From positions 153,462 to 214,328 of the forward strand of contig NZ_LN889812.1 in the NCBI RefSeq assembly GCF_900009145.1: DNA of 60,867 nucleotides, written 5' to 3'. The notes beneath the pieces are model-generated. The model did not search any database and had not been told where the DNA came from. It saw only the letters and a program-made list of their open reading frames with translations. A program made the position numbers and the translations under genes. Below, in pieces: positions 555 through 44,646 of the stretch; position 1 is the stretch's first letter; the number at the start of each line of letters is the position of its first letter. The DNA is from Planktothrix tepida PCC 9214. GTDB lineage: Bacteria; Cyanobacteriota; Cyanobacteriia; Cyanobacteriales; Microcoleaceae.

Positions 555-790
555 GAAAAGTTAAAAACTGATTTTGATGTATTTTTACAAATCCTCTTTA
601 ATGTTTATTTAAGCCGCGGGAAATTGGAATCTATTCAAAATGATAAACTGGTTGTTCAATGTCATACAATGTTCGGGATGATAACGTACCAACTTCTCAA
701 TCAGATTATCAAATCGGTTCATACCCGGTTTTAAGGCAGAACGAGATAAACGATATAATGGCATCGGGACAGGAACCCCCTTCAAATTCC
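555..790. other. flank between MATE gene and insertion sequence; possible truncated ORF from 659
   Basis: No gene is recognised here. An ORF opens with ATG at 659 (MSYNVRDDNVPTSQSDYQIG...) and runs in frame into the insertion sequence at 791, so it could be the 5' stump of a gene cut by the element. There is no convincing ribosome binding site and the ~44 residues match nothing I know. The transposase frame on the other strand also extends through 709-790. Confidence 0.3.
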
Positions 791-1908
791 CAGGGCTGTT
801 TCATTTTCCCAAATTGGGGAGTCAAATTGAGTCCCCAATTTTTAGGAATGAGGCGAAAAAGTTGTCCTTCTGTTATTGATACAAAACCCCAACTTCTGAA
901 AAGATTGATTACCAGAGTTTTAAGAGTTGAAAAGTTGCTAGCTGCTTGAAAGTTACGAATTCGGCTTTTATCTTCTTGAAAAATTACATCTTTTACCCAA
1001 TGGTATTGATTCTCAATCCCCCAATGTCCTTTAATGATTTGAGCTAAGGTTTGAGCTTCGTTAACGGCACTACTGATATAATATACTTTTTCTTGATAGG
1101 GTTTTTTTCCTCTGTTGCCACTTCTTTCTATCTGAATCACAAGTTTCAGATGTTTCCAGCCTTTGTGAAAGTTGTTATTGACTTGATAAATGGAAACTTT
1201 TCGAGTCACTTTTCTGCCATGGCTGTGTTCATGAGTCACATCTACACTCACAGGATTTTCACTTTTTATTACCGCTTCAACTTGCTCATATAACTTTTTT
1301 TGATTTTTCTTTAAAGCCATTATATAATCATTCCCGCTCTCAATAACTAGGGCAGCAGTTTTCTGATTACAGTGCAACGCATCAAAGGTTATTACTTTTC
1401 TTTTTAACTGGCAATCCCTTACTATCTTTTGGGCTTGGCTGATTTCTGATTCTTTTTTGTTCTCCATCTTTCTCAGGTTTAATACGCATCCTGTTCTTTG
1501 ACTAAACAGTGCAACAATCATCACAAAATTTTGGGATTTATCTCCAAAATCTTTGAGAGTGCTTCTCAGGCTTTTTCCATCTACTGCTAACCAATCTAGT
1601 TCTTCTTGATGCGGATAATTACAAGTAGCCCATTCATTAAATATCTCAATTAAATTTAACCAATCTACTCCTTGTATTACTCTTCTTATTGTTGAGTATG
1701 ATGGCAGTTTTTCTAGCTTGATTTTTAAAACTTGACTCAGTTGGTATTGATTGATTTTCGCAAAATTTTCGAGTTCTCTGTACCCTAAATTTCTCGACAT
1801 TAGCCCCAAAATGACTATTAATAATACTAGCCATATTGGATGCCTTGTTCCCTGGGCTTTCCGGTAATCCTTGACTTTTTTCAGTTTTTCTATTAGAATT
1901 GTTAGCAT
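709..1908 (-). CDS. ISAs1-family transposase
   Basis: A 399-residue DDE transposase. The N-terminus (MLTILIEKLKKVKDYRKAQG) and the blocks DWLAVDGKSLR (~residues 104-114), TFDALHCNQKTA (~174-185) and HWGIENQYHWVKDVIFQED (~295-313) are the conserved DDE-core segments of the ISAs1/H-repeat group. The frame is undisrupted through the catalytic core, so the enzyme may be active. Oddly, it runs through the left terminal repeat and takes its last ~26 codons and stop from flanking DNA, and it also reads across a hairpin at 811-841. The native C-terminus may therefore have been altered. Confidence 0.85.
   Translation of the reverse strand: MLTILIEKLKKVKDYRKAQGTRHPIWLVLLIVILGLMSRNLGYRELENFAKINQYQLSQVLKIKLEKLPSYSTIRRVIQGVDWLNLIEIFNEWATCNYPHQEELDWLAVDGKSLRSTLKDFGDKSQNFVMIVALFSQRTGCVLNLRKMENKKESEISQAQKIVRDCQLKRKVITFDALHCNQKTAALVIESGNDYIMALKKNQKKLYEQVEAVIKSENPVSVDVTHEHSHGRKVTRKVSIYQVNNNFHKGWKHLKLVIQIERSGNRGKKPYQEKVYYISSAVNEAQTLAQIIKGHWGIENQYHWVKDVIFQEDKSRIRNFQAASNFSTLKTLVINLFRSWGFVSITEGQLFRLIPKNWGLNLTPQFGKMKQPWEFEGGSCPDAIISFISFCLKTGYEPI
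791..803 (+). repeat. terminal inverted repeat, left end of the ISAs1-type element
   Basis: CAGGGCTGTTTCA, perfect inverted match to 1993-2005. It lies inside the 3' part of the transposase reading frame. Confidence 0.75.
811..841. repeat. hairpin inside the 3' end of the transposase gene
   Basis: AAATTGGGGA and TCCCCAATTT are 10-bp complementary arms around a short loop that itself contains TCAA/TTGA. It lies just inside the left end of the element and could act as a terminator or as protection from readthrough. Confidence 0.5.
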
Positions 1909-1982
1909 CTTTATTTTTACAAAAAAATCAGCGACCGCTTTTGATTTTATCAGCTAGCGATCGCTATTTCTTTACTCTTTTC

Positions 1983-2019
1983 CCCCCGACTTTGAAACAG
2001 CCCTGGTTCAAGTCGGGGG
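1983..2019. repeat. inverted repeat that encloses the right end of the insertion sequence
   Basis: Arms CCCCCGACTTtGAA (1983-1996) and TTCAAGTCGGGGG (2007-2019) pair over 13 bp with one bulged T. The terminal repeat of the element (1993-2005) overlaps the left arm and occupies the loop, so one arm is inside the element and the other outside it. Confidence 0.6.
1993..2005 (-). repeat. terminal inverted repeat, right end of the ISAs1-type element
   Basis: TGAAACAGCCCTG, the reverse complement of 791-803. Confidence 0.75.
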
Positions 2020-2162
2020 TGATGCCTGTTATGAAAATTATGGAGGGTGTGAGCATTTCCTCTCTAGCAGAGCTAATGCTAGAGCAATGGGCATTGGCTC
2101 TGCTCCAGTCAGCATCCCCATCCACTGAACTCGATGACAGTATGAAGGAAATCGCTCTATGA
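2006..2162 (+). pseudogene. 3' remnant of a carrier-protein-ending megasynthase (PKS/NRPS), truncated by the insertion sequence
   Basis: The frame that ends at the TGA at 2160-2162 reads VMPVMKIMEGVSISSLAELM and then LEQWALALLQ before a polar tail. This resembles the last helix region and C-terminal tail of an acyl/peptidyl carrier protein as found at the end of cyanobacterial polyketide synthases. Its stop overlaps the NRPS start (ATGA at 2159-2162), the usual arrangement for consecutive megasynthase subunits, and the NRPS begins with a docking domain able to receive such a partner. Everything upstream, including the phosphopantetheine serine, is gone: the coding sequence meets the insertion sequence at about 2006-2015. 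The carrier identity is inferred from a short stretch. Confidence 0.6.
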
Positions 2163-5100
2163 ACCTTAAGCAATTTGTAGCTGAACTCGCCCTAGCTGGT
2201 GTGAAGTTGTGGGTCGAAGACGACCAGTTGCGCGTGCGGGCACCAAAGAAGGTACTGACACCAGAGGTACGTAATTTACTGGCATTGCATAAGGCAGAAC
2301 TTGTAAAGTTGCTACAGAACAGCAATGCGATCGCCAATGATACTGACCTACCCCTTCTAAGAGTTTCGCGAACTGGTAACTTGCCTCTGTCTTTTGCCCA
2401 AGAAGGACTGTGGTTCTTGAGCCAGTTGGAGCCAACTAACCCCTTCTACAACGTACCACTAGCTCTGCGACTTAATGGTTCTCTCAACGTTGTCGCTTTA
2501 GAGAAAAGCCTCAACAAGATAATTCAACGCCACGAGGTCTTACGCACCAACTTCACAACGGTTGAGGGGCAACCCGTTCAGGTTATTGCTCTTGGCTTGA
2601 CCTTGAGTGTGCAAGTCATAGATTTGAGTGAGCTACCTGAGAGTGAAAGAGAAATTGCTTGGGGGCTAAAAGCCAGGGCACAAATCCAGCAACCCTTTGA
2701 CCTCAGTAGCTCTGGGTTGATTCAAGCTTCTGTGCTAAAGCTAACACCGACAGAACATATCTTGTTACTAACAATACATCACATTGTCTGGGATGCTCCT
2801 TCAGAGGGCGTATTGGTCAAAGAGTTAGCAGCTTTCTACACAGCCTACTGCAATGACTTGCTACCAGAGCTACCAGAGCTACCGATTCAGTACGCCGACT
2901 TTGCTGTTTGGCAGCGGCAGTGGTTACAGGAAGACATACTAGAGTCTCAACTTGCTTATTGGAAGCAACAACTGAGGAGTGCGCCAGAAATATTGGAACT
3001 GCCAACTGACCGAGTGCGAAAAGCAACTCAAACGTTTCGAGGGGCGTGTCACCGACAAGCACTCTCAAAAGAACTAACAGAGGCTTTGATGATTTTAAGT
3101 CAACGCAAAGGAGTTACTCTGTTTATGACGCTGTTGGCGGCGCTCTTCACATTGCTTTACCGTTATACAGAGCAGACCGATATTTGCGTAGGCACGCCTT
3201 ACGCAGGCCGGGAGCGCCGTGAGCTTCAGGGATTGATTGGATTGTTTCTCAATACGTTGGTTCTGCGGACTGATATATCAGGTAATCCGAGTTTTGAGGA
3301 GCTACTCTCAAGAGTCCGGGACGTGGCTTTGGGAGCATACGCTCATCATGACCTACCGTTTGAAAAGTTATTAGAACAATTGCAGCCAGCGCGTAACTTA
3401 AGCTACACACCGTATTTCCAAGTGAGGTTTGTGCTTTACCCAGCGATGCAGATAGACATGGAAGGCTTAACGGTGAGTCCAGTAGCGGTAGAAACAGCTA
3501 CGGCGAAGTTGGATTTGTTTGTAGCTTTCGTCAACAGCGACTCTGGACTAATCGGGACGTGGGAATACAATACTGACTTGTTTGATGCCAGTACGATCAA
3601 TCGCATGGCTCAACATTTTCAGACCTTACTAGAGGGAATTGTTGCTAATCCTCAACAGAAGGTTTCAGAATTGCCATTGCTCACAGAGCCAGAGCGACAC
3701 CAGCTATTAGTAGAGTGGAACAACGCCACAAAAGAGTATCCCTTCAATAAGTGTATCCACCAGTTATTTGAGGAACAGGTGGAGCGATCGCCTGATGCTA
3801 TTGCGGTGGTTTTTGAAGGGGAGCAACTGACCTACCAAGATTTGAACCAACGGGCGAACAGAATAGCACATCACTTGAAAACTCTAGGTGTGGAGCCAGA
3901 AGTGCTGGTGGGCATCTACGTTGATCGCTCCTTAGAGATGGTAGTGAGTCTACTTGGCATCCTCAAAACTGGAGGGGCTTATGTGCCTTTAGACCCATCC
4001 TATCCCAAAGAGCGCTTAGCGTTCATGTTGCAAAATTCACAACCAAAGGTGTTGTTGACTCAGGAGTGCTTGATAACAGAACTGCCTGAACATACGGCAC
4101 AAGTTGTTTGCTTAGATACAGATAGGCATCTCATTGCTCAACACTCAGAAGAAAATTTAAACCAAACAGCAACAGTTGCTAATTTAGCCTATGTCATTTA
4201 TACCTCTGGCTCAACGGGAAAGCCAAAGGGAGTACAGGTGACACACGCTAATTTGTGTCACTATGCCCAAGCAATGAGTCAAGTGCTAAATATCACAGCA
4301 GAAGATGTATATTTGCACACCGCATCGATTGCTTTCTCATCTTCTGTCAGACAGTTGATCGTGCCTCTGGCTAGTGGGGCAACTGTCAAAATTGCAACTT
4401 CTGAACAGAGAAAAGACCCACAATCACTATTTACGACAATTAAACAACATAGTGTGACAGTTATTGATATTGTCCCCTCTTATTGGCGTAACTGCATTCA
4501 TACACTTGCTAGCTTAGAACCTGTTACGAAACAAGCACTGTTAGATAACAAACTGCGTTTAATTGTGTCGGCGAGCGAACCGCTGCTGTCCGATCTTCCT
4601 ACTCAGTGGACGTTTGGTTTTCAGCACAAAGCACGATTAATCAATATGTTTGGTCAAACTGAAACTTGTGGAATTGTTGCCACTTATCCAATTCCGGCAC
4701 AACAGGATGAGCCAATCAAAATTGTCCCTATCGGTCGCCCGATCACCAACACACAAATTTATCTGCTCGACTGCCATCTGCAACCAGTCCCTGTTGGTGT
4801 ACCTGGGGAAGTGCATATTGGTGGTTTTGGACTGGCGCGAGGCTACCTCAACAGCCCAGAATTGACAAAAGAAAAATTCATCCCCAACCCCTTTAGCCAA
4901 GAAGAAGGAACACGCCTCTACAAAACCGGGGACAATGCCCGCTACCTTCCAGACGGTAACATTGAGTTCCTTGGTCGGCTGGATCGTCAAGTGAAGATTC
5001 GCGGTTTCCGTATTGAACTCGGAGAAATCGAAGCAGCGCTAGCTCAACACCCAGAGTTACGGGAGACAGTAGTTTTAGCAAGGGATGACCAACCAGATAA

Positions 5101-6412
5101 CAAACGACTGGTAGCTTATGTTGTTCCCAACCATGAACCTCCTGCCACCATTGAACTGCGGCACTTCCTCCAACAAAAGCTCCCAGACTACATGGTGCCG
5201 GGAGCCTTTGTGATGCTTTCTTCTTTACCTCTCACCCCCAATGGTAAGGTAGACCGTCGCGCCTTGGAGACACCAGATACGGAATTAAGTAACTCAATGG
5301 GCTTTGTCCCTCCCCGTGACACAGTTGAACAGCAACTACAGCAAATTTGGTCAGAGGTTTTGAAGCTTCCGACTGTTGGAATGAAGGATAACTTCTTTAC
5401 TTTCGGAGGTCATTCTCTTTTAGCTGTACTCTTAATGGCTCAAATTTCGCGGCATTTTGGGAAAAATCTGCCCATAGCAACGCTTTTCTCTAGCCCAACT
5501 ATCGAACAGCTAGCTAGTTGTCTTCGATCCGAAACTCATTCCTTGCCTTGGTCTCCTTTGGTAGCAATTCAGTCTGGCACCGAGAAGCGACCTTTCTTCT
5601 TTGTGCCTGGAGTTGGGGGAAATGTGATTTACTTATATGAGCTAGCGCGTCATCTTGGATCTGAGCAACCCTTCTACGGTCTGCAAGCACGGGGACTGGA
5701 TGGCGAATCAGAGCCTTTTACACAGTTGGAAGAGATAGCCACCTACTATATTGAAGCAATACAGACAGTTCAGCCCTCTGGTCCGTACCTGCTGGGAGGG
5801 CATTCGTTTGGAGGTGTAGTTGCCTTTGAGATGGCAACTCAGTTGCTCAAACAGGGGCATGAGGTCGCTCTACTTGCAATTATTGACGTTGTTGCGCCAA
5901 TTGTTGCTAATAAGCCGAATTATTCTGATGAAGATGAGGTGGCATATCTTTTTGATTTTGCCAGCTATATTGAATATATGTTCTCCCTCAAGTTGGAGGT
6001 ATCTAAAGAAACTCTTGCTTCCCTATCTCAGGAGGAGCAATTGAACTATCTCAAAGAACGGTTGATACGGGTCAATTTGCTACCCCCTGATGCGGGAATA
6101 GGGTTAGTACGGGGGCTAGTGCAAGTATACATTGCGTCCCTGAAAGCTCATCGTGCTTATTTGCCTTCGGGGCTGCAACAAGCTCCCATTACTCTTTTCC
6201 GTTCTAGTGAGGTTGATGTATTTGAGGGTGATACAGAAGAGTTGAAACAAAGGCGAAAAGAACCTGCTTTGGGCTGGAACGAGTTTTCTTCTACTATAGA
6301 CATTCATGTTGTTCCAGGGAACCATAGCACCATGATGCAACAGCCGCACGTACAGGTGTTAGCCACACAACTTCTCTCTTGCCTAAAGCAAACACAGGCT
6401 CCATTGGCTTAG
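2159..6412 (+). CDS. non-ribosomal peptide synthetase, docking-C-A-T-TE, single module
   Basis: A 1417-residue cytoplasmic assembly-line enzyme. In order: an N-terminal TubC-type docking domain (~1-55, FVAELALAGVKLWVEDDQLR); a condensation domain (~75-370) with active-site HHIVWDA at 207-213; an adenylation domain with A3 IYTSGSTGKPKG (~680); a carrier domain with FFTFGGHSL, phosphopantetheine serine 1086; and an alpha/beta-hydrolase thioesterase with GGHSFGG, nucleophile Ser1216. A complete terminal module with TE implies that this protein adds the last unit and releases the product. Two oddities: the condensation motif has Ala where Gly is usual after the Asp, and the adenylation core reads AFSSSVRQ where amino-acid-activating domains have FD-A-S (Ser727 replaces the conserved Asp), plus NMFGQTE instead of YGPTE. 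The substrate is thus probably not a standard alpha-amino acid. The start is supported by GAAGGAA upstream. Confidence 0.95.
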   Translation: MNLKQFVAELALAGVKLWVEDDQLRVRAPKKVLTPEVRNLLALHKAELVKLLQNSNAIANDTDLPLLRVSRTGNLPLSFAQEGLWFLSQLEPTNPFYNVPLALRLNGSLNVVALEKSLNKIIQRHEVLRTNFTTVEGQPVQVIALGLTLSVQVIDLSELPESEREIAWGLKARAQIQQPFDLSSSGLIQASVLKLTPTEHILLLTIHHIVWDAPSEGVLVKELAAFYTAYCNDLLPELPELPIQYADFAVWQRQWLQEDILESQLAYWKQQLRSAPEILELPTDRVRKATQTFRGACHRQALSKELTEALMILSQRKGVTLFMTLLAALFTLLYRYTEQTDICVGTPYAGRERRELQGLIGLFLNTLVLRTDISGNPSFEELLSRVRDVALGAYAHHDLPFEKLLEQLQPARNLSYTPYFQVRFVLYPAMQIDMEGLTVSPVAVETATAKLDLFVAFVNSDSGLIGTWEYNTDLFDASTINRMAQHFQTLLEGIVANPQQKVSELPLLTEPERHQLLVEWNNATKEYPFNKCIHQLFEEQVERSPDAIAVVFEGEQLTYQDLNQRANRIAHHLKTLGVEPEVLVGIYVDRSLEMVVSLLGILKTGGAYVPLDPSYPKERLAFMLQNSQPKVLLTQECLITELPEHTAQVVCLDTDRHLIAQHSEENLNQTATVANLAYVIYTSGSTGKPKGVQVTHANLCHYAQAMSQVLNITAEDVYLHTASIAFSSSVRQLIVPLASGATVKIATSEQRKDPQSLFTTIKQHSVTVIDIVPSYWRNCIHTLASLEPVTKQALLDNKLRLIVSASEPLLSDLPTQWTFGFQHKARLINMFGQTETCGIVATYPIPAQQDEPIKIVPIGRPITNTQIYLLDCHLQPVPVGVPGEVHIGGFGLARGYLNSPELTKEKFIPNPFSQEEGTRLYKTGDNARYLPDGNIEFLGRLDRQVKIRGFRIELGEIEAALAQHPELRETVVLARDDQPDNKRLVAYVVPNHEPPATIELRHFLQQKLPDYMVPGAFVMLSSLPLTPNGKVDRRALETPDTELSNSMGFVPPRDTVEQQLQQIWSEVLKLPTVGMKDNFFTFGGHSLLAVLLMAQISRHFGKNLPIATLFSSPTIEQLASCLRSETHSLPWSPLVAIQSGTEKRPFFFVPGVGGNVIYLYELARHLGSEQPFYGLQARGLDGESEPFTQLEEIATYYIEAIQTVQPSGPYLLGGHSFGGVVAFEMATQLLKQGHEVALLAIIDVVAPIVANKPNYSDEDEVAYLFDFASYIEYMFSLKLEVSKETLASLSQEEQLNYLKERLIRVNLLPPDAGIGLVRGLVQVYIASLKAHRAYLPSGLQQAPITLFRSSEVDVFEGDTEELKQRRKEPALGWNEFSSTIDIHVVPGNHSTMMQQPHVQVLATQLLSCLKQTQAPLA

Positions 6413-6486
6413 TAATTGGTCTGTTAAGTGGAAATTTTTGAGGTAATTAACAAGCTCTTTCATTTGACTAAAAAAGCTCAATCATT

Positions 6487-7458
6487 ATGAAAATAGGAAT
6501 TTTCGACTCGAATCACAATCTACCCTTGCTAGTAGAACCTGACACAAAACGCGAATCGTCTAATTTTGATTATCTCCTTTCATGGTACAAAGATAATAGT
6601 GAACTTTTATCAAACAAAATTTTGAAACACGGAGCGATTCTTTTTCGAGGTTTTGATGTCAATACAATCTTAGCTTTTGAAAAATTCGTTAAATCTATTT
6701 CAGGTAATTTAATAGATTATGTTGATGGAAATTCTCCCCGAACCCAACTAGCTAGTGGTATTTATACTTCAACTGAATATCCAGCTGAATACTCCATTAG
6801 TTTGCATAATGAGTTATCCTACTCTAGCCAATGGCCAGACCAACTCTATTTTTGCTGTATTACTGCGCCTAAAGAGGGCGGAGAAACACCAATTGCTGAT
6901 AGTCGCCAAATCCTCAAAAGTCTTAACCCAAAGATTGTGGAAAAGTTCACACTTAAACAAGTGAAGTATATCCGCAATTTACCTAGTAGTAATGGCATGG
7001 GAGTTTCATGGCAAGATGCTTTTAAAACTTCAGATAAGTCCCTAGTAGAAGAGCATAATAGAAAAGCTGGTATGGATTTTGAGTGGAAGAAGGATGGAGG
7101 ATTGCGATTAAGCCAGATTCGTCCTGCTATTGCAACTCATCCTCGTACAGATGAACAAGTTTGGTTTAATCAAGCCGATCTATTTCATCCATCTACTCTT
7201 CCTAAAAATATCTACGAAGCTATGATGTTTTATTTTGACGGTAACGAAGAGGAACTCCCTCACTATGCTTGCTTTGGCGACAATACTCCAATTGATGTTT
7301 CAATGCTAGATGAAATTAGAGAAACTATTGGTAAACAAACTGTTGTTTTTCCTTGGCGGGAGGGTGATGTTCTAGTCATAGATAATATGTTAGTTTGTCA
7401 TGGACGAAGACCGTTTTTTGGTTCGAGAAAAATTTTGATTTCTATGTCACAATTCTGA
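6487..7458 (+). CDS. TauD/TfdA-type Fe(II)/2-oxoglutarate oxygenase, SyrP-like
   Basis: A 323-residue protein of the clavaminate-synthase/SyrP branch. The iron-binding triad appears as His107-x-Glu109 (SLHNELSYSSQWPDQLYF) and distal His305 (MLVCHGRRPFF), followed by an arginine-rich segment that would hold 2-oxoglutarate. Members of this branch hydroxylate or desaturate free or carrier-bound amino acids in peptide antibiotic pathways; SyrP hydroxylates aspartyl-carrier protein. It sits 74 bases after the NRPS and 25 before the acyltransferase in one apparent transcription unit, so its substrate is likely the NRPS-bound residue or the released product. The ribosome binding site is weak. Confidence 0.85.
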   Translation: MKIGIFDSNHNLPLLVEPDTKRESSNFDYLLSWYKDNSELLSNKILKHGAILFRGFDVNTILAFEKFVKSISGNLIDYVDGNSPRTQLASGIYTSTEYPAEYSISLHNELSYSSQWPDQLYFCCITAPKEGGETPIADSRQILKSLNPKIVEKFTLKQVKYIRNLPSSNGMGVSWQDAFKTSDKSLVEEHNRKAGMDFEWKKDGGLRLSQIRPAIATHPRTDEQVWFNQADLFHPSTLPKNIYEAMMFYFDGNEEELPHYACFGDNTPIDVSMLDEIRETIGKQTVVFPWREGDVLVIDNMLVCHGRRPFFGSRKILISMSQF

Positions 7459-7483
7459 TAATCTTAGCTATAAGTGTAAGTAG

Positions 7484-9265
7484 ATGTATCAATTCCAAGA
7501 GTCTCTTCCAAAACTACCTTTGCCCAAACTCTCAGACACCTGCGCTCGTTATATCGAGATGGTAACACCGCTGTTGAGTGACACAGAATTAGAGCGAACT
7601 AAGACCGCCGTAAGGGAATTTCAACAAGGGAGTGGAGTCGAACTACAGAAGCAATTGGAGATGATTGACCGCTCAACTAATACTAACTATTTACAACAAT
7701 TTAAAGAGGAAACCTATTTAGAAATGCGGTCTTCACAACTAAATATGAGAAGCACAGGGGTGGCTTCGCCCGTCTTGACAACCTCGAAATATTCCTTTAC
7801 CCGCATTGTCGCCATCATAATTTTTAATACCCTCCAATTCCACCTGAAAATCAAATATCGGGAACTAGAGCCAGATCGCGATGTATTTCAACGAAACAAA
7901 CCTCCCCTTTGTATGGCTCAGTATGACAATTTGTTTGGCAGTGCGCGAATTCCTGGAATCAAATGTGACAGCTTTCAAAGGGCGAAAAATTCTGAGCATA
8001 TTGTGGTCATCCGACGGGATACGTTTTACGTCTTAAAGTTGCTCCCAGGGGATACGTTACCGTCGGTGGAAGCTGTAGCACAGCAAATTGATTGGATTCT
8101 GGAAAATACTCATCCAGGGGAACTTCCTGTGGGAGTGCTGACATCTCTCCCCAGAGAACAGTGGGCAACAGTTCGCTCCTACCTCACGAACCTAGATGCA
8201 GAAAACGCTTGCTCTCTAGAACTATTGGATAGCGCCTTATTTGTTGTCTGTTTAGACGAAATAACGCCTCCCGATTTGGAAAGGCTAGCAAGAACTGCCT
8301 TTACTGGAGATGGTGCGCGAAACCGATGGTTCGATAAACCTATTCGGCTCGTTTTTAACTCTGAGGGTCAGTTCGCTGTAACAATTGAACACAGTAATGT
8401 CGATGGTTATCCGGTAGCACGGTTGATAAGCGAGGTCAACCGGGAGCTTGAACCCCTTGAAGAATCCCTTACATCCTCCAGTTCAGTCGAACTCGAACCA
8501 CCACAGCGACTGTGCTGGAAGTTAGATCGGACACTCAAAGAAGAAGTAGCGCAAGCATTAACAGATGCAGAGCGTCTGAGCGAACAAATTCAGATGGGGA
8601 TAATAATTTTCGACGAATTTGGGTCAGACTTTATCCAGCAACATGGTTTAATTGCTGATGCTGTGTTTCTCCTGTCGCTACAGATTGCTTACACTCGCCT
8701 GCATGGTAAGATTACTACTAGCGCTTGGCAAGCTGTACACAACAGAACCTTCCGGTACGGGCGGCACGACTACGCCTTAGTAGTTACACCCGAATCTGTA
8801 GAACTCATTCAAGCCTTTACTGAGGGAGCTTCAGACGAAGTGCGATATCGGACTCTAAAACGTGCTGTTAACGCTCATTTATGGCGAGTGTTTAACACTA
8901 AAAACGGGCAGGGAGTGGTCATGCACCTTTATGCGCTTTATAACTTAGCTCGCTATAAAGGCAGCAGTGTTCTCGATATTTTTCAAGATAAAACCTTTGA
9001 AGAAGTTATCTTAGACCCAAGCTTCTCCGCTTCTGCCCTAAGTAATAAAATGGGTGTAGAGATAGCCTGCCCCAGTCCATGTCGCGACTATGGAATCGGC
9101 TATGTCATCGATCGCAACAAGATTACCTTTGCTGTAACGAGTAAACATCTACAGCCGGAAGATTTCATCGCTCTTGTCAAGCAGTGTCTTTCAGAAATCG
9201 GAAAATTGTTAATAGAGCAACGACACCCAGATTCCAATATAAGAATACATTCATCACCACAATGA
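7484..9265 (+). CDS. stand-alone choline/carnitine O-acyltransferase-family protein
   Basis: A 593-residue protein matching the eukaryote-typical choline/carnitine acyltransferase fold. It begins with LPKLPLPKLSDTCARYIEM, the family N-terminal signature, and has IEHSNVDGYPVARLISEV with catalytic His303 (compare EHS/EHA-x-x-DG/EG in ChAT and CrAT). Later come TFRYGRHDYALV, KNGQGVVMHLYAL and a GIGYVIDRNKITFAVTS segment equivalent to the GYGVCY region. These enzymes move acyl groups between a thioester and a hydroxyl such as carnitine or choline. The family is uncommon in bacteria, and a free-standing copy inside an NRPS cluster is unusual. It is 25 bases after the oxygenase and 10 before the dehydrogenase. 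Plausible roles (inference): esterifying a carrier-bound acyl group to an alcohol, or off-loading and recapture of an intermediate. Confidence 0.85.
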   Translation: MYQFQESLPKLPLPKLSDTCARYIEMVTPLLSDTELERTKTAVREFQQGSGVELQKQLEMIDRSTNTNYLQQFKEETYLEMRSSQLNMRSTGVASPVLTTSKYSFTRIVAIIIFNTLQFHLKIKYRELEPDRDVFQRNKPPLCMAQYDNLFGSARIPGIKCDSFQRAKNSEHIVVIRRDTFYVLKLLPGDTLPSVEAVAQQIDWILENTHPGELPVGVLTSLPREQWATVRSYLTNLDAENACSLELLDSALFVVCLDEITPPDLERLARTAFTGDGARNRWFDKPIRLVFNSEGQFAVTIEHSNVDGYPVARLISEVNRELEPLEESLTSSSSVELEPPQRLCWKLDRTLKEEVAQALTDAERLSEQIQMGIIIFDEFGSDFIQQHGLIADAVFLLSLQIAYTRLHGKITTSAWQAVHNRTFRYGRHDYALVVTPESVELIQAFTEGASDEVRYRTLKRAVNAHLWRVFNTKNGQGVVMHLYALYNLARYKGSSVLDIFQDKTFEEVILDPSFSASALSNKMGVEIACPSPCRDYGIGYVIDRNKITFAVTSKHLQPEDFIALVKQCLSEIGKLLIEQRHPDSNIRIHSSPQ

Positions 9266-9275
9266 GCTTTGAAAA

Positions 9276-10421
9276 ATGGACTTTTCATGGACAGAGGAAC
9301 AAATTCAGTTTAGAGAGAAGATTGTTAAATTCGCCCAACAAGAGTTGCAATCAAATCTAATTGACCTAGATTGGCGAGAAGAATTTAACCGAGAAAGTTG
9401 GGAAAAATGTGGGAAATTTGGTCTGATCGGTCTGCCAATTCCTGAACATTATGGGGGAACTGGGACAGATATTCTTACAACGATTTGTGCCTTGGAAGCT
9501 TTAGGTTATGGTTGTAAAGACAATGGTCTAATCTTTGCCATCAACGCTCATATATGGGCTGGCGAAATACCGATTTTAACCTTTGGCACCGAAGCTCAAA
9601 AACAAAAGTATCTCCCCAAACTCTGTAGCGGTGAATTCATTGGCGCTCATGGGGCAAGTGAACCAGAAGCAGGTTCGGATATTTACAATCTTAAGACTAC
9701 TGCCAAAATACAGGGAGACAAGTACATCTTAAATGGTGTTAAGAATTGGGTCACAAATGGTCCAGTTGCTGACCTTTACATTGTATTTGCGAATGTCGCT
9801 CCCGAAAAAGGAAAACGGGGAATTACTGGATTTATCGTCGAAAAAGATTTTGCCGGAGTCGCGATCAATCGTAAAATTTCCAAAATGGGTTTAAGAACGA
9901 CTCAGTTAGGTGAACTGTTCCTAGAAAATTGTGAAGTGCCGAGTGAAAATCGTCTTGGTCAAGAGGGTTCGGGACTTGCTATCTTTAATCACAGTATGGA
10001 ATGGGAGCGAGGATTCATTCTTGCCAGTGCGATCGGGACTATGGAACGTCTGTTAGAAAGCTGCATTCAATATGCTAGGAAGCGCCAGCAATTTGGTCAA
10101 TCGATTGGAAAATTTCAGTTAGTTAGCAGCAAAATTGTTGACATGAAGATGCGACTTGAAACAGCTAGAGCGCTGCTGTATAAAGTAGGATGGTTAAAAA
10201 ATAATAAAAAAACGGCGATTATGGAAGCGGCAATGGCAAAACTTTATATTAGTGAATCTTGGGTGCAGTCCTGCCTTGATGCAATTCAGATTCATGGTGG
10301 TTATGGCTATCTAACTGAGTTAGAACTAGAACGAGAATTAAGGGATGCGTTAGGGAGCAAGCTTTATTCAGGAACCTCTGAGATTCAGTACCAAATAATT
10401 GCCCAATTTATGGGATTATAG
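9276..10421 (+). CDS. acyl-CoA-dehydrogenase-like flavoprotein, probable prolyl-carrier-protein oxidase
   Basis: A 381-residue acyl-CoA dehydrogenase fold. HGASEPEAGSD and KNWVTNG (~residues 128-160) are the flavin/substrate signatures. Glu244 in MEWERGFILASAIG is at the catalytic base position used by isovaleryl-CoA dehydrogenase and prolyl-carrier oxidases. YARKRQQFGQSIGKFQ and the C-terminal HGGYGY...YSGTSEIQ complete the family pattern. Because a proline-type ligase and a free carrier protein follow directly, the best fit is oxidation of prolyl-S-carrier to pyrroline- or pyrrole-2-carboxyl-S-carrier, as in PltE or AnaB. Whether two or four electrons are removed cannot be read from sequence. 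The start is 10 bases after the acyltransferase stop. Confidence 0.85.
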   Translation: MDFSWTEEQIQFREKIVKFAQQELQSNLIDLDWREEFNRESWEKCGKFGLIGLPIPEHYGGTGTDILTTICALEALGYGCKDNGLIFAINAHIWAGEIPILTFGTEAQKQKYLPKLCSGEFIGAHGASEPEAGSDIYNLKTTAKIQGDKYILNGVKNWVTNGPVADLYIVFANVAPEKGKRGITGFIVEKDFAGVAINRKISKMGLRTTQLGELFLENCEVPSENRLGQEGSGLAIFNHSMEWERGFILASAIGTMERLLESCIQYARKRQQFGQSIGKFQLVSSKIVDMKMRLETARALLYKVGWLKNNKKTAIMEAAMAKLYISESWVQSCLDAIQIHGGYGYLTELELERELRDALGSKLYSGTSEIQYQIIAQFMGL

Positions 10422-10533
10422 AGGGTGATTTTTTGTTTACGCGAGAGCATTTGCGAGATTACGAGACAACGCTGCGGCGCGCTACGAAGAATTGGTACGA
10501 ATTCATCTCGCTGTATTATCGTTTGAACATTCT

Positions 10534-12153
10534 ATGGAAGACAGCCCAAAACCCATGCCGTATCTACTGCAACAGCTTTTAGAAATTAGTGCCAAGCAAT
10601 ATCCAGACCGGGAAGCTGTAATCTATAAAAATAGCAGCATCACGTATCGGGAGTTAGACCAAGTTTCTAATCAGTTAGCCCACCTCTTGATAAGTTGCGG
10701 GATATCAAGAGGCGATCGCGTCGGCATTTACGTGAACAAATCCATTGAAGCAGTCATTGCCATTTTCGGTATCCTTAAAGCTGGATCTGTCTACGTTCCC
10801 CTAGACCCCTTAGCTCCTGCGAAGCGGATAGGCTTTATCATTGACAATTGCCAGATGAAGGCTTTGGTGAGTACCCATAAAAAGATAGCCAGCCTTCAAC
10901 TGCCAAACACCTCTGGTGTCCAGTGCCTGGTACTCGCTGACGATGAAGCACAACAGGACACGGGTAATCTGTCAAATGTCAGGATGGTGTCTTGGCAAGA
11001 GGTGTTGCAAGCACCGCCAAACCCATCACCACCCAGCAATTTGATTGAAGACGATCTTGCCTACATTCTCTACACATCCGGCTCCACTGGCACTCCCAAA
11101 GGGGTGATGATTAGCCATCGAGCTTCTCTAACCTTTGTCAACTGGGCTTATGATTGCTTTCAGGTACAAAGGAGCGATCGCGTTTCCAATCACGCCCCAC
11201 TTCATTTCGATCTTTCCATCTTTGATATCTTCACCACTATCAAAGCAGGTGCGACTGTCATTCTGGTACCACCGGAACTCTCAGTGTTTCCCAGAAACCT
11301 CGCTCAGTTTATTGAAGAACAACAAATTACCATCTGGTATTCTGTCCCTTCAGTGCTGAGACAGCTAATTGTTTACGGCAACCTGCATCAGGCTCAATTT
11401 CCCCATATTCGGACGATTTTGTTTGCGGGGGAAGTGTTCCCAGTTAAATACCTGCGTCAACTTATGGAGTTGCTACCGCAAGCCAACTACTATAATCTCT
11501 ACGGACCCACAGAAACAAATGTCTGTACTTACTATCCGGTAAAGGAAATTCCTCCTGAAGAGGTAAGAACTCTGCCCATTGGCAAAGCTTGTGCCAACAC
11601 AGAGGTATTTGCCGTTAATGAACACAAGGAAATTACCAAACCAGGAGAAGTTGGGGAACTTTACGTGCGTAGCCCCTCCTTAATGAAAGGATACTGGGGA
11701 AATCATGACAAAACCCAACAGGCTCTCACACCTTTCCCCGTACCAGGTTGCGGATGGTTAGAAAAAGTTTACCGAACTGGGGATTTAGTGAAACTCAATT
11801 CTGATGGCAACTATATTTATTTAGGTCGTCGCGATAACCAGATTAAGAGCCGAGGATACCGAATTGAACTGGATGAAATTGAAACGACGCTATACGCTCA
11901 TCCTGCAATTGTTGAAGCAGCCGTAATTGCTATTCCCGATGAGGAAATCGGCAAGAAAATCAAGGCTATAATTGCCACACAGGATGGAAATAATCTCAAA
12001 AAGAGCGATGTAGAATATTTTTGTGCACAGCGTCTACCTAAATACATGATACCGGAGCTAATTGAGTTTCGTTCTGGGTTACCTAAAACCCCTACAGGCA
12101 AGATTGACAAAACCTTACTGCGTACCGAAGAACTTCAAGAGAATTCAAAATAG
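10534..12153 (+). CDS. stand-alone adenylating enzyme, probable L-proline:carrier-protein ligase (PltF/AnaC-type)
   Basis: ANL-superfamily ligase of about 539 residues. Motifs: LAYILYTSGSTGTPKGVMIS (A3), NLYGPTETNVC (A5), YRTGDLVKL (A7), GRRDNQIKSRGYRIELDEIE (A8), and a C-terminal lysine in TPTGKIDKT. Aligning by eye with GrsA, the pocket residues are D, L, F, Y, L, A, L, V, C; from memory the PltF-type proline code is DLLYLALVCK, one difference away. It would activate L-proline and load the carrier protein encoded 19 bases downstream. I prefer ATG 10534 (MEDSPKPMPY) over the TTG at 10492, whose extra residues are unlike the family N-terminus; ATG 10555 is also possible. Confidence 0.88.
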   Translation: MEDSPKPMPYLLQQLLEISAKQYPDREAVIYKNSSITYRELDQVSNQLAHLLISCGISRGDRVGIYVNKSIEAVIAIFGILKAGSVYVPLDPLAPAKRIGFIIDNCQMKALVSTHKKIASLQLPNTSGVQCLVLADDEAQQDTGNLSNVRMVSWQEVLQAPPNPSPPSNLIEDDLAYILYTSGSTGTPKGVMISHRASLTFVNWAYDCFQVQRSDRVSNHAPLHFDLSIFDIFTTIKAGATVILVPPELSVFPRNLAQFIEEQQITIWYSVPSVLRQLIVYGNLHQAQFPHIRTILFAGEVFPVKYLRQLMELLPQANYYNLYGPTETNVCTYYPVKEIPPEEVRTLPIGKACANTEVFAVNEHKEITKPGEVGELYVRSPSLMKGYWGNHDKTQQALTPFPVPGCGWLEKVYRTGDLVKLNSDGNYIYLGRRDNQIKSRGYRIELDEIETTLYAHPAIVEAAVIAIPDEEIGKKIKAIIATQDGNNLKKSDVEYFCAQRLPKYMIPELIEFRSGLPKTPTGKIDKTLLRTEELQENSK

Positions 12154-12172
12154 TTCAATAAGGAGATTGATA

Positions 12173-12442
12173 ATGACCGCCGTAAACAAGTACACGGAAG
12201 CACAGATAGAACAGATAATTAAAGAGCATATTATCCAAAATTTCATGTACGATAGACCCGATATGGTTTTATCAAATGATTTGTCCATAATCGAAGAAGG
12301 ACTGGTTGACTCGCTGGGCATTTTTCGACTGGCTAGCTTTCTGGAAGAAAAGTTTGGTATTACCTTAAATCCAGAAGAATTCTTACTGGAGAATTTTGAA
12401 ACAGTTAACGTTATCAAATCTTTCGTTATCAGCAGACTGTAA
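12173..12442 (+). CDS. stand-alone acyl/peptidyl carrier protein
   Basis: An 89-residue acidic helical carrier protein. The phosphopantetheine attachment site is Ser47 in EEGLVDSLGIFRLASFLEE. ATG 12173 is chosen because AGGAG lies at 12161-12165; a longer in-frame opening from 12062 overlaps the ligase gene and has no ribosome site. It directly follows the proline-type ligase, as PltL follows PltF and AnaD follows AnaC, and would hold the prolyl group while the flavoprotein oxidises it. It is the last gene of the plus-strand unit. Confidence 0.9.
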   Translation: MTAVNKYTEAQIEQIIKEHIIQNFMYDRPDMVLSNDLSIIEEGLVDSLGIFRLASFLEEKFGITLNPEEFLLENFETVNVIKSFVISRL

Positions 12443-12556
12443 CAGTTGTTGCTGCCAATTTCTAACTACCTGCTAGGTTAGATTTTTACAGGCTACGCCA
12501 TCAAAATCTACTTTGACCAAATTAGCTGAAGTTTTAAACAGGCAAACGTTGACGGC

Positions 12557-13924
12557 TCAACCTATGCGTGAATCAGGCAGTTGCTCGGCGACAACCAGAG
12601 GTTCATCTTTCAATGTTGCGGACACCTGCACCGCAAGCACTACCACTCTTATTGCTGCGAACATTGATAGAGCCAACCATAAGAGATGATTGCTCTGATA
12701 ATGCCATGCCATGACTGCTAAGGGCGCAAATCCAAACATTGCTCCGCTTAAAGTAGCGTTACGTATAAAATGCCCTTGGGCTAAACCAGCAAAGTATCCA
12801 TCCAGTATCATAGCAATTGAACTAAATCCCAGTCTGGAGAGTAGCCAAGAAACATAGATTTTAACAAGTTCCTTCACTTCACTATGATTGGTTAATAACC
12901 CAAAGACTGTATTCGGGAACAGGATAGACACTCCAGAACAAATTAATGCCGCCAGTAGGCTGGTTGAGACTGCCACCTGCAATAGGGGCAACAATCGATC
13001 TATTGTTTGTTTGCCTTTAAAATTTCCACCCAAAGTCTCGGTAGCAAATCCTATTCCTTCAAAAAAGTAACTGGAAAGCATTATTACTTGTAAGAGTAAG
13101 GCATTTTCAGCCAGGATAGTTGTCCCCATTGCAGAACTTAGAGCCGTGAAAAAGGTGGCGACGAACATATTAGCCGAAGACCTGATAAAGAGGTTGCCGT
13201 TCAGGGTAAAAGTCGCTTTAAATGCGCTGGCATCCCAAAACTTTCTGGCTGCACTTCGAGCTTCCTTCCACTCGATATTGAGACTCGCCAAAATTATGCC
13301 TACCACTAACACCAGATACTGGCTAATTGCCTGAGACAGTCCCGCCCCCGTGCTTGCCCAGTCCCAACGGACAATAAACAGGTAGTCGAACACAACATTA
13401 GCCGCATTGCCTACTAGGGTCATCAGCAACACAAAGCCACTCATTTCTCGTCCGAGAAACCACCCAATCAGAACAAAATTGACGACAACCGCAGGCGCTC
13501 CCCAAATTCGGGCATTGAAATAGTCAATACCTGAAGCCTTAACCTCTGGAGTCACGCTCATTAGACCAAACCACAACTGTTGCAGAGGATATTGCAACAA
13601 CAGAAGCAGTCCGCCTATACCCAGTCCGATTAAAGCATTACGCAGTCCCACCAGCAGCATATCTTCGGTGTCATCCCGTCCCACCGCTTGCGCTGTCACT
13701 CCAGTGGTTCCCATGCGTAAAAAGTTCACAATGAAATAGGTGAAGTTAAACAGAGTGGTAGAGAGAGTAACCCCTGCTAAGTGATGGATTTCGGTTAGAT
13801 GGCCCAGGAACGCTAAGCTGATTGTCCCAGCCAGAGGCTCCATAATATTGGACAGGACATTGATGAAAGCTAGTCTAAAGAAGCGAGAAAGGAAGTCGTA
13901 CCTATTTGGGAGTGTTATGTTCAT
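12557..13924 (-). CDS. MATE-family efflux transporter (DinF/NorM-like), probable product exporter
   Basis: A complete 455-residue membrane protein with about 12 hydrophobic segments. The N-terminal half has NIMEPLAGTISLAFLGHL and GTTGVTAQAVGRDD, typical of MATE proteins. It is convergent with the biosynthetic unit, its end 114 bases from the carrier gene. MATE exporters often accompany cyanobacterial toxin clusters (AnaI in anatoxin-a, SxtF/SxtM in saxitoxin), so export of the cluster product is a reasonable inference. Confidence 0.9.
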   Translation of the reverse strand: MNITLPNRYDFLSRFFRLAFINVLSNIMEPLAGTISLAFLGHLTEIHHLAGVTLSTTLFNFTYFIVNFLRMGTTGVTAQAVGRDDTEDMLLVGLRNALIGLGIGGLLLLLQYPLQQLWFGLMSVTPEVKASGIDYFNARIWGAPAVVVNFVLIGWFLGREMSGFVLLMTLVGNAANVVFDYLFIVRWDWASTGAGLSQAISQYLVLVVGIILASLNIEWKEARSAARKFWDASAFKATFTLNGNLFIRSSANMFVATFFTALSSAMGTTILAENALLLQVIMLSSYFFEGIGFATETLGGNFKGKQTIDRLLPLLQVAVSTSLLAALICSGVSILFPNTVFGLLTNHSEVKELVKIYVSWLLSRLGFSSIAMILDGYFAGLAQGHFIRNATLSGAMFGFAPLAVMAWHYQSNHLLWLALSMFAAIRVVVLAVQVSATLKDEPLVVAEQLPDSRIG

Positions 13925-35572: not shown

Positions 35573-38500
35573 TCAAGCAACACGGGTATAAATACTTTTT
35601 CCCTGACCAAAATAAGAATCGTAAACGTGCTGATATACCTCTTGACATTTCTGCTGATATAATTCCGTTGAGTAACGCTGGGGTAAGCGATCTAAAATCT
35701 CCTCAACTGTTAGTTGTACCGCCGCACGGGTTCGCTGTCGCTTGCGCCAGTCCAACACCAATTTTTCCCGTTTGAGGGTTTCTAATAACTGTTGGGCGAC
35801 CTTCTTAACGTCTTGCTTTTCCTTTTCCGTTAAATCAATATCGGGTTTGGTTAGTAAATCCAAAATTGCTAATTCTTCCTCTTCCAGATTTTCCGAAATC
35901 GCCCGTTGATCTTCAATATTTAATTCTTGGGCAAATTCTACTAAATCTTGAAAGAACGTTTCGATATTGCGACAGCCTGCATTATAGTCATCAATCATTT
36001 GCTGAAACTTGTTTAAATAATTCATCCGGCTTTTATTAAGATTAACCATCTGGGTTAGCTTGATGCTAATTTGTCCTTTAAGTTTTTCGGCTTCCGTGCG
36101 TTGATAACCTGTGGCAAATTTAGCCTTCAATGCTTCAAAATCAATTTGACTTAAATCGATGATTTGTTCTGATTCAGAAATCACATATTTTAAAGTTCCA
36201 ATGGATTGATCTAAAATTTCCTCAACGGTTGCTTTGACGTCTGAAATGTCTACTTTTGGTGTTTGAGAAAGAATACACTCCCTAATCATGATTAATAGAT
36301 ACTGCATTGAGGTAAAATCATCAGCAATGGGATCAGGTAGAATTGCTTTATATAGTTTAATTACATTTCTAACGAGGGCAAAATAACGCTGTTTGGATTC
36401 CTCATTAATTAGAATAGCTTCTCCTGCATCACAGATTAATTTAATGCGTTCAAATACTGGTGCAGATTGCAGTTTTTCTAAATTAATTTCTCGTTCTGTA
36501 CAAAAATTAGTCGCTTCTAATATTGCCTTTCGCAACTCTTCTATTAATGCCGTTTTTGCTTGTACTGGGGTGTCTCCGTCTTGGACTCCTCCGCCAGAAG
36601 CTGAACCATAAATGGCTAGGGCTTTTTGCAAGTTACGAAACACGCCAATATAATCAACAATTAACCCATTAACTTTATCTTTAAATACCCGATTTGCCCT
36701 GGCGATGGTTTGCATAAGGGTATGGTTCAACATGGGTTTATCGAGGTAAATGGTTGAACAACTGGGAACATCAAATCCGGTAATCCACATCGCACAAACA
36801 AACACAATTCGCAGGGGATGATCTGGATCTTTGAATTTTTCGTCTAACGCTTCATTCACTAACCGTTTCCGGTGGGGTTGAATATCTAAATTTTTCTTCT
36901 GAAACGCTTCTACTTCATTTTGAGATTGAGAAATGATCACCGCCATATCGGTATTTTGCATATAATTAATCCTTGCTTCCAGACCTTCTCGTTTTGGGGC
37001 TTCTGCGGTGTCTAATTGAATTTGCAAGGTGGTTAAATGTTGTTGCCAATATGCCTGTACTTTGTTGTACATTTTAACGGCTGTAAAGCGATCAATGGAA
37101 ATCACCATTGCTTTTCCTTGGTGTCCCCGTCCTAAAAAATGAGTAACAATATCTTGGGCAATTGTTTCTAACCGTTCATCACGGGTAATTAAATGATATT
37201 CCCGCGAAAATTCCCGTTCTAATTTAGTTTCTGCTTCTTCCTCTAAATTAGCAGATTCTATCGCGTAGGCAATATTTTCATTCAGGTCTGTATTCGTTAG
37301 TTCTAATTGTGGGATGCGGTTTTCATAAAATAGCGGAACAGTGGCGTTATCTTCAATGGATTGTTTAAAATTATAAACACTAATATAATCGCCAAACTCT
37401 CGTTTAGTGGTTTCTTCTCCAATCATTAAGGGTGTACCTGTAAAGCCAATAAATCCAGCGTTGGGTAAGGCTTTTCTCATATTTTTTGCAAAGGTATCAT
37501 ATTGGCTGCGGTGAGCTTCATCAGCGATAACAATCACATCTTCTCGGTCGGAAAGTTGTGGATAGTTTTCGCCTTTAGCGGTGCGGAATTTCTGAATTAA
37601 TGTAAAAATATAACGGTGATCTTCTTGTAACAGTTGTTTTAAATGTTCCGCACTTTTCGCCCTGACTTCTTTTTCGGGTTCGGTAACTGCGCCTGTTTTG
37701 GCGAAATTTTTATAAATTTGGTTGTCTAAATCATCTCTATCAGTGATCACAACAAACGTCCAATTACCCGTAATTTGGCGATGAACTTTTTGGGAGAAAA
37801 ATTGCATGGAGAAGCTTTTTCCGCTTCCTTGGGTATGCCAAAATACCCCTAAACGTCCTTGATTTTCACGAATTTGTTTAACGGCTTCTATGGCATTATT
37901 AACACCGAGATATTGATGATTTTTGGCGACAAGTTTAACAATTTGCCCTTTTTCTTCACTAAATAAGGTAAAGTTTTCGATAATATCTAATAATTTAGGT
38001 TTCTCACAGGTTCCCCGAATCATAGTATCAAGAGAAATTATCCCTTCTTCCCCTTCTGAGTTGATTTTTTTCCATTCGGCGAAGTGTTCCCAATGGGCGG
38101 TAACGCTACCAATACGGCTTTCTGACCCATTGGAAAGGATAACAATTCCGTTATACCAGAACAGTTGAGGAATGGTGTTTCTATAATCGCATAAGTTATT
38201 CTGATAAGCTAAATCTAAGCGTTTATAATGGGCTTTTAATTCAATAAATAATAGGGGAATTCCGTTTATAAAACCAATTAAATCAGCGCGGCGAGTGTAC
38301 ATTTCCCCCGATACCCAGAATTCAGAGGCGAGGAAAAAGTTGTTTTCCGTTGGGGTTTTCCAGTTAATAATTTGGACGTTTTCGGTAATTTCTTCGTTGT
38401 CGGTGTTGCGGTAGGTGACGTTTACGCCATCTTTGAGGAGTTTATAAATTTCGCGGTTAGCGTTAGCAAGGCTTAAGGCGTTTCTATCACGAATGAGTTC

Positions 38501-38722: not shown

Positions 38723-38796
38723 GGGAATTTTAGGGGTTATAGCAATCTGCGTGTTCGAGGGGGAAATTGTAATATTTTAGGGTAAGGGTGGTGTCC

Positions 38797-38961
38797 AAAG
38801 TCCGTCAACTTAACCCACGTTAGCCCTGAACTCAAGTTCGGGCTAATAGCGATCGGCATCTAAAGATGACTAAAACTGTTCTTTATTAACCCGTTTTAAC
38901 GGGTTTTAGCTTTTAGCCTGAAATTTATTTCAAGGCTTTTGAGGTTAAGTTAACGGACTTT
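38797..38961. repeat. MITE-like inverted-repeat element between hsdR and hsdS
   Basis: Arms AAAGTCCGTCAACTTAACC (38797-38815) and GGTTAAGTTAACGGACTTT (38943-38961) match at 18 of 19 positions, bounding 165 bp. The interior contains two further hairpins (TAGCCCTGAACTCAAGTTCGGGCTA and a GACCCGTT-like AACCCGTTTTAACGGGTT), and no ORF. It occupies most of the 365-base gap between hsdS and hsdR, the only large gap in the operon. Confidence 0.8.
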
Positions 38962-39087
38962 GCGTCCTTCCCAAACCTCTTGGTTTTTTTGATGTTTCTC
39001 TGACTTTGATATTATTCAAATAGCTAATTTTGCAAGGGTGGGTTATGGATGGAGTTTGTTGGTGGAATTGATCTATATTATATGAGG

Positions 39088-40218: not shown

Positions 40219-40246
40219 TAAATTTATCCTTTTCCCTCATTAACTT

Positions 40247-40896: not shown

Positions 40897-40964
40897 AAAT
40901 AGTTCCTCTTAATTAACGGCTGAAAGTTTAATCTCATTTTCCTTAACTTAATTATACTCATCCC

Positions 40965-42524: not shown

Positions 42525-42617
42525 TTATCAATCGTTAATCGTACAATTATTGTATAGCGCTACGCGCAAGGGAACAGGGAACAGTAAGAATTGAAAGGGT
42601 TTTATGGAACATATCAA

Positions 42618-44471: not shown

Positions 44472-44543
44472 AAATTTAGGCTCTGGTTTGCTCTCATTTC
44501 TCTCGTTCCTCTCGTTTCTAGGTTCTACCTAGAAATGCTTTTT

Positions 44544-44628: not shown

Positions 44629-44646
44629 CGAGGGGGGATAGATCAA

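Follow-up and report, generated by a model that had tools for sequence, protein, structure and literature searches.

A free-standing carnitine-acyltransferase-fold protein beside a proline-oxidising cassette in Planktothrix tepida: a candidate carrier-protein-dependent O-acyltransferase

Results and discussion

The stretch of DNA analysed here (hereafter the window) comprises 60,867 nucleotides of Planktothrix tepida PCC 9214 (contig NZ_LN889812.1, positions 153,462 to 214,328; host genome of 6.78 Mb in 191 contigs) and contains a unit in which a free-standing protein of the choline/carnitine acyltransferase fold (CAT; 7484..9265, plus strand) is encoded next to an oxidase, a ligase and a carrier protein of the proline-oxidising type. 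The best explanation, for which we see about an even chance, is that this CAT is a carrier-protein-dependent O-acyltransferase which forms a core with the ligase, oxidase and carrier and would act on a hydroxyl acceptor that is neither choline nor carnitine. Slightly more tentatively, it may belong to a cyanobacterial lineage of free-standing CAT-fold proteins in which the donor has changed from acyl-coenzyme A (acyl-CoA) to acyl-S-carrier and the acceptor from carnitine to other alcohols, ligase, carrier and CAT being an interchangeable module whose acid-activating enzyme differs from case to case (for proline/pyrrole in the window, for acids of the aryl type in Nostoc sp. CHAB 5844 and in genome G481). 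Overall, the finding is a strong lead, known for the full gene set from the sequence of one genome.

The unit consists of six plus-strand genes (2159-12442) that encode a nonribosomal peptide synthetase (NRPS) module, a TauD-family oxygenase, the CAT, the oxidase, the ligase and the carrier, separated by exactly 74, 25, 10, 112 and 19 bases and followed by a convergent gene for a MATE exporter. No frame break occurs in these seven genes (2159-13924). Open reading frame (ORF) calls and Pfam domains agree with the gene set, order and gaps given in the original prediction, which had been made from the letters alone; the starts of the ligase and carrier genes are in-frame ATGs downstream of the TTGs in the ORF list.

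Distribution and active-site residues of the CAT

The PF00755 (Carn_acyltransf) model matches residues 11-565 of the CAT with 450.8 bits (cut-off 22.3). This domain is rare: it was detected in 3 of 386 genomes of the phylum, 5 of 388 of the order and none of 14 control genomes, the phylum and order samples overlapping and the counts including the host genome and one broken copy. The order genomes concerned are those of the window, G306, G376 (broken copy), G481 and G649. Two Vibrio CATs and that of Nostoc sp. CHAB 5844 come in addition from the named collection, which may lack entries closely similar to the window. Spread of the CAT by plasmids was considered and dropped, no tblastn match at 1e-5 being found in 72,556 plasmid records. 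In the CAT tree, the order is (human/rat, Vibrio), G649, G481, Nostoc and (G306, window), with starred support at four cyanobacterial forks.

Alignment with carnitine acetyltransferase (CrAT) indicates that the catalytic histidine is kept (His303 in the motif EHSNVDG, corresponding to H343 of CrAT), as is the equivalent of D430. Lysines K419 and K423 correspond to Ser381 and Gln385 in the window; this pair reads R/K in G649, A/R in G481, S/E in Nostoc and S/H in G306, and K/K in both Vibrio proteins. K419 and K423 hold the 3'-phosphate of CoA, and D430 and E453 line the pantothenate site (PMC11852590). Position 453 reads E, E, Q, Q and Q along the series G649, G481, Nostoc, G306 and window. 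That the nucleotide contacts are lost while His and D430 remain is a pattern which a phosphopantetheinyl-protein donor would allow, and a carrier-protein donor is proposed because the CAT is devoid of the CoA lysines.

On the acceptor side, Y452, T465, T467 and R518, which we take to be the carnitine/choline contact residues, correspond to Trp415, His428, Tyr430 and Met480 in the window. Along the same series, position 452 reads Y, T, L, W and W, position 465 T, F, W, H and H, position 467 A, D, D, Y and Y, and position 518 R, L, Q, M and M, so that G649 is the cyanobacterial CAT with the most canonical residues; the Vibrio CATs keep K419 and K423 and have T465, T467 and R518 replaced. Choline and carnitine are unlikely acceptors because these presumed contacts are replaced by W, H, Y and M in the window. 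The original prediction had proposed transfer of an oxidised prolyl group to an alcohol: of the readings considered here, transfer of the carrier-bound acyl group to a hydroxyl has the best support, while its suggestion of a choline- or carnitine-like acceptor does not fit these replacements.

Free ligases and carriers beside other CATs

Three of the five intact cyanobacterial CATs (window, Nostoc sp. CHAB 5844 and G481) have a free-standing ligase and carrier as neighbours, the ligases being of different kinds; the CATs of G306 and G649 have no such neighbours. In Nostoc, the CAT comes after the free ligase and carrier among anthranilate-synthase-, PabC- and TrpD-like genes, which suggests an acyl group of the aminobenzoyl type; the region (L002:986-18250) contains two anthranilate-synthase-like genes together with aminotransferase-IV/GNAT, histone-deacetylase-family and TrpD-like genes. 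In G481 (L102:9323-13956), the CAT is followed by a ligase having 55% identity with that of Nostoc and resembling 4-coumarate-, benzoate- and oxalate-CoA ligases, by a carrier (PF00550, 32.8 bits) and by a sulfotransferase, and this row represents a second predicted CAT module, with an aryl/carboxylate-type ligase. Comparison with the NRPS and polyketide synthase (PKS) sequences of the window revealed no NRPS in the ca. 20 kb covered at each of the Nostoc and G481 loci.

When the regions behind the G306, G376 and G649 CATs were searched with a carrier model, the scores did not exceed 6.8, 4.3 and 4.1 bits (L008, L009 and L101, respectively), and a free carrier at these places was dropped; L101 is a 10-kb contig that extends only 1.8 kb beyond the CAT on one side, so that its surroundings are partly seen. 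An AMP-binding fragment located behind the G306 CAT was rejected as a lost cassette ligase, having 30% identity over 80 residues with the window ligase and a weaker match to that of Nostoc. The CAT of G649 has an ORF of the halogenase families HalD/WelO5 in its vicinity (L101:1804-4992).

The proline cassette and its oxidation level

The oxidase (9276..10421, plus strand) carries three acyl-CoA dehydrogenase Pfam domains, and its best solved match is the prolyl-acyl carrier protein dehydrogenase 4irn (AnaB; 590 bits), to which it is identical across the segment SMEWERGF, where we place the catalytic Glu; the PigA and RedW NCBIfam models match it below their cut-offs. The ligase (10534..12153, plus strand) is a stand-alone AMP-binding enzyme of the PltF/AnaC type that matches the solved PltF (6o6e, E 3.4e-105). 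At what we assume to be the code positions, its adenylation code is D-L-F-Y-L-A-L-V-C. This code recurs in 9 of 11 further proline-cassette ligases (L049-L054, L056-L058), the two most distant ones (L061, L062) having different codes. The carrier (12173..12442, plus strand) displays a VDSLG serine motif and a PF00550 match of 23.1 bits (cut-off 20.8) obtained on the longer ORF 12062-12442. The code, the two structural matches and PF00550 substantiate the earlier claim that a proline-carrier oxidation cassette occurs in an operon-like unit with a stand-alone CAT.

Relatives of the oxidase were found in 37 of the 388 order genomes at E<=1e-60, 15 of which (host included) have at least 52% identity. 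PF00755 is present in none of the 14 others, assuming a single shared 388-genome sample, and co-occurrence of the CAT with AnaB/C/D homologues, which the original prediction proposed to search for, is found in this genome only. The four oxidases nearest by identity (L049-L052, 70-85%) adjoin flavin halogenase genes and six (L053-L056, L058, L059) are followed by PKS genes; among the remainder, one occurs on a 3.4-kb contig (G464) and three are more distant (L060-L062 in G488, G607 and G638). In the trees, the window oxidase is sister to L049 (99/96) and so is the window ligase (98/99), for which L049 is also the nearest sequence (76%). All six PKS-flanked oxidases fall into a single clade (100/100) that excludes the window oxidase and includes L054, which scores 823 bits to 4irn. 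Locus L049 (genome G535) also encodes three flavin halogenases, a condensation domain that stands free, a DUF3179 protein and a carrier.

In known thiotemplated pathways, pyrrole formation precedes halogenation and similar steps (PMC10849742), and for this reason the halogenase-linked relatives presumably make pyrrole. Since the sister of both the window oxidase and the window ligase is halogenase-linked L049, pyrrole is favoured over pyrroline, and the oxidase product is presumably pyrrole-2-carboxyl-S-carrier, pyrroline being less likely. A halogenated pyrrole was dropped as a candidate product, no flavin halogenase (PF04820) match being found in the host genome.

The carrier seems to have a history apart from that of the oxidase and ligase, albeit weakly resolved. 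By identity, its nearest relatives are the carriers of Nostoc (64%), G042 (63%) and G019 (59%), with those of cassettes L049-L054, L056 and L058 at 46-56% and that of L061 at 38%. In G042 and G019, a ligase devoid of the proline code and a carrier precede an MBOAT O-acyltransferase, annotated as such in L098 only (L098:7607-11065 in G042 and L099:8050-11502 in G019, each comprising ligase, carrier and an ORF of 506 aa, that of L099 having the same length and place). Seven carrier groupings were considered after removal of L061 as a long branch (present in the oxidase tree); one, the window with the Nostoc and MBOAT carriers, already formed part of the best tree, and the others were compared by p-AU values (approximately unbiased test), which are uncorrected for multiple testing and are given little weight here. 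A sister relationship of the window and L049 carriers was rejected (p-AU 0.0117); values were 0.0137 for the window with four halogenase-linked carriers, 0.184 for the window with halogenase-linked carriers, L089 and L090, 0.379 for halogenase-linked carriers and L089 without the window, and 0.489 for the window and Nostoc carriers alone. In alignments, the carrier seems to end directly after the last helix, with no visible docking tail.

Mosaic origin of the NRPS-TauD-CAT half

The NRPS (2159..6412, plus strand) has the Pfam organisation TubC_N-Condensation-AMP-binding-PP-binding-Thioesterase, in agreement with the docking, condensation (C), adenylation (A), thiolation (T) and thioesterase (TE) domains previously read there. 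The reading of this protein changes with two upstream features that had escaped the original prediction. A PKS stump (2022..2162, plus strand) overlaps the NRPS start and corresponds to ca. the last 45 codons of a PKS, with 80% identity to residues 2209-2253 of a G306 PKS in tblastn and a matching DNA alignment. It adjoins an ISAs1-family insertion sequence (IS; 790..2006, minus strand; NCBIfam NF033564, 259.7 bits, cut-off 70) that has perfect 14-bp inverted repeats at its ends (790-803 and 1993-2006) and a transposase ORF (709-1908) extending beyond its left end. From the stump, the NRPS is read as the truncated terminal module of a longer assembly line whose PKS was cut beside this element.

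Positions 2023-9191 align at 91-93% DNA identity with G306 (L007/L008), a distant genome from another family of the same taxonomic order, in which NRPS, TauD and CAT occur without the proline cassette. Upstream of the NRPS, G306 encodes a partial-C-A-T protein and a KS-AT-DH-MT-KR-ACP PKS, of which the window retains only the stump. This homology is gradually lost around 9190-9220, where the CAT gene reaches its 3' end, and the join with the cassette was probably made in the lineage of the window, because the CAT tails of G306 and Nostoc resemble each other more than that of the window. The ratio of nonsynonymous to synonymous substitution rates (dN/dS) relative to G306 is 0.295 for the NRPS, 0.298 for TauD and 0.312 for the CAT, with dS of 0.12-0.20 over whole genes; these values average both lineages and do not date a recent loss in one of them. 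They indicate that the NRPS-TauD-CAT segment was recently transferred and has been largely under purifying selection.

The TauD-family Fe/2-oxoglutarate oxygenase (6487..7458, plus strand; PF02668, 138.5 bits) had been described as SyrP-like; the family assignment holds, and beyond it no NCBIfam model reached its cut-off. In the NRPS A domain, the A4 motif reads FSSSVR, and since a Ser replaces what we take to be the A4 Asp, the domain probably does not accept an ordinary alpha-amino acid. G336 has NRPS and TauD (TauD 85%) with no PKS between the modules and no CAT, and because NRPS-TauD occurs in this form the CAT looks like a later addition. A related but distinct NRPS-PKS cluster is located on contig 57 of the host genome (L071, 586000-605900), with 58% identity to the window NRPS and a PKS having 63-68% identity with that of G306, i.e. 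with the PKS lost from the window. By these comparisons, the oxidase and ligase came from elsewhere than NRPS-TauD-CAT, and the unit as a whole is best described as a recent mosaic from several sources rather than a conserved pathway.

Proposed mechanism and alternatives

In the mechanism we propose, the ligase would activate L-proline and load it on the carrier, and the oxidase would convert prolyl-S-carrier into pyrrole-2-carboxyl-S-carrier by removal of four electrons, a two-electron oxidation to pyrroline being the less likely alternative. The CAT would then take the acyl group straight from the phosphopantetheine arm of the carrier, not from CoA, and transfer it to a hydroxyl by general-base catalysis involving His303. 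The likeliest acceptor would be a hydroxylated amino-acid or peptide product, for example one bearing a hydroxyl set by the TauD enzyme on a residue of the adjoining NRPS module, and the MATE protein would export the resulting ester. All of these reactions, with the oxidation level, donor and acceptor, are predicted from homology and residue comparison.

Several observations weigh against this scheme. The full gene set occurs in one genome only, and its NRPS is truncated. The G481 CAT retains an Arg at position 423 that is compatible with CoA contact there. L052 joins the group of window and halogenase-linked oxidases weakly (56/78). The grouping of the window, Nostoc and MBOAT carriers in the best tree is poorly resolved (70/84), and that of the window with all halogenase-linked carriers and L089 is not rejected (p-AU 0.093). 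In G306, no carrier of the window's kind was found at 1e-10 (if the same 388-genome sample applies) and no proline-type ligase (best 36%); because both are missing, the G306 CAT would need another donor or be idle, which argues against an obligate need for a free carrier.

The G306 arrangement, in which the CAT adjoins NRPS-TauD without a free carrier, also favours an unlikely alternative in which the carrier feeds a pyrrole- or pyrroline-2-carboxyl starter to the NRPS C domain as an amide, and the CAT later joins an alcohol in ester linkage to the peptide, whether still on the NRPS or already released, comparable to offloading by fungal CAT domains. The NRPS does have a C domain whose upstream PKS partner is lost, and fungal CAT domains act on megasynthase-bound chains. 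However, it carries its own thioesterase, its TubC_N docking domain would fit a PKS partner rather than a free carrier devoid of a visible docking tail, and the Nostoc and G481 CATs have no NRPS in the ca. 20 kb covered. No more probable is a decaying mosaic, in which NRPS-TauD-CAT would be the stranded end of a lost assembly line with the proline cassette merely inserted alongside and no substrate shared between them. The PKS cut beside the IS element, the junction close to where the CAT gene ends and the occurrence of the full set in a single genome are all consistent with this; dN/dS values near 0.3 (averaged over both lineages), seven genes free of frame breaks, a gap of only 10 bases between CAT and oxidase, and ligase-carrier-CAT neighbourhoods that arise independently elsewhere argue against it.

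The oxidation level offers a further alternative, to which we give equally little weight: as in the anatoxin pathway, the carrier ester made by the cassette would be that of 1-pyrroline-5-carboxyl, the group that the CAT would then transfer. AnaB is indeed the best solved match of the oxidase and the host genome is devoid of a PF04820 halogenase, yet the oxidase falls outside the PKS-flanked clade as sister to a halogenase-linked one. Far less probable is that the CAT has nothing to do with the carrier and is an ordinary acyltransferase using CoA and carnitine or choline. The full-length PF00755 match and the retained His and D430 equivalents would suit such an enzyme, but K419, K423, E453 and the four presumed acceptor contacts are all replaced, and the related G649 protein demonstrates that most of these residues can persist within the clade.

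Comparison with known systems

The proposed carrier-dependent transfer resembles steps of clorobiocin and coumermycin biosynthesis, in which a ligase, an oxidase and a carrier (CloN4, CloN3, CloN5) make carrier-bound pyrrole-2-carboxyl as predicted for the window, and a dedicated acyltransferase (CloN7, CouN7) puts it on a hydroxyl. CloN7 and CouN7 have an alpha/beta hydrolase fold, unlike the CAT, and may be regarded as functional precedents, by analogy, for carrier-to-hydroxyl pyrrole transfer. This system, which also includes CloN1/CloN2, differs further in using a second carrier and a deoxysugar acceptor. The CAT fold itself is present in the fungal PKSs LtbA and Tv6-931 as a C-terminal domain that keeps the catalytic His and acts on a carrier-bound chain, LtbA transferring it onto a polyol; a fungal CAT domain is reported to offload from an ACP onto glucinol (for these comparisons, see PMC10901484, PMC11218499, PMC8748450 and PMC3252866). 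The fungal domain is fused to a highly reducing PKS, whereas the window CAT is a free-standing bacterial ORF beside a free carrier.

Anatoxin AnaB, AnaC and AnaD have homologues in the window oxidase, ligase and carrier; an anatoxin cluster was ruled out, as no PKS follows the carrier (the MATE and DusA genes come next) and the oxidase lies outside the PKS-flanked clade. The halogenase-linked cassettes L049-L052 have the nearest oxidases and, unlike the window, no CAT. In the MBOAT loci L098 and L099, a free ligase and a related carrier adjoin an O-acyltransferase in a logic like that of DltA-DltC-DltB, but with a membrane MBOAT and no proline code where the window has a soluble CAT and the proline code.

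Neighbouring features

The convergent MATE gene (12557..13924, minus strand; PF01554) scores above the GntT cut-off (NCBIfam NF041358, 654 bits versus 525), and the TauD protein reaches 24 bits with GntD against a cut-off of 345. A guanitoxin cluster was dropped since only the MATE protein fits, other gnt genes not having been searched for in the genome. Another MATE-like ORF at the left edge (24-554) corresponds to the C-terminal part of a 917-aa frame (L010:16263-19013), of which only a MATE half is recognised and which has sulfotransferase and GNAT genes upstream. Further downstream, type I restriction genes and two consecutive FtsH genes occupy the region 35573-46545 (HsdR, 35573-38722; HsdM, 40965-42524; FtsH, 42618-44471 and 44647-46545).

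Significance

The CAT fold is known so far for CoA-carnitine chemistry and as a fused release domain of fungal PKSs. Among the matches listed in the literature search, judged by titles and abstract beginnings, none describes a carnitine-type acyltransferase that stands alone in a bacterium and belongs to a pathway based on an NRPS or a carrier protein; within that literature, the occurrence of the CAT as a separate bacterial protein and its pairing as a module both seem to be new. If the proposed role is correct, the CAT fold would also be a free carrier-protein-dependent esterification tool in bacteria. The window CAT and its counterparts in G649, G481 and Nostoc sp. CHAB 5844 would then provide a natural gradation of residues with which to study the donor switch, for which the proline cassette would provide a simple substrate in a mass-spectrometry test.

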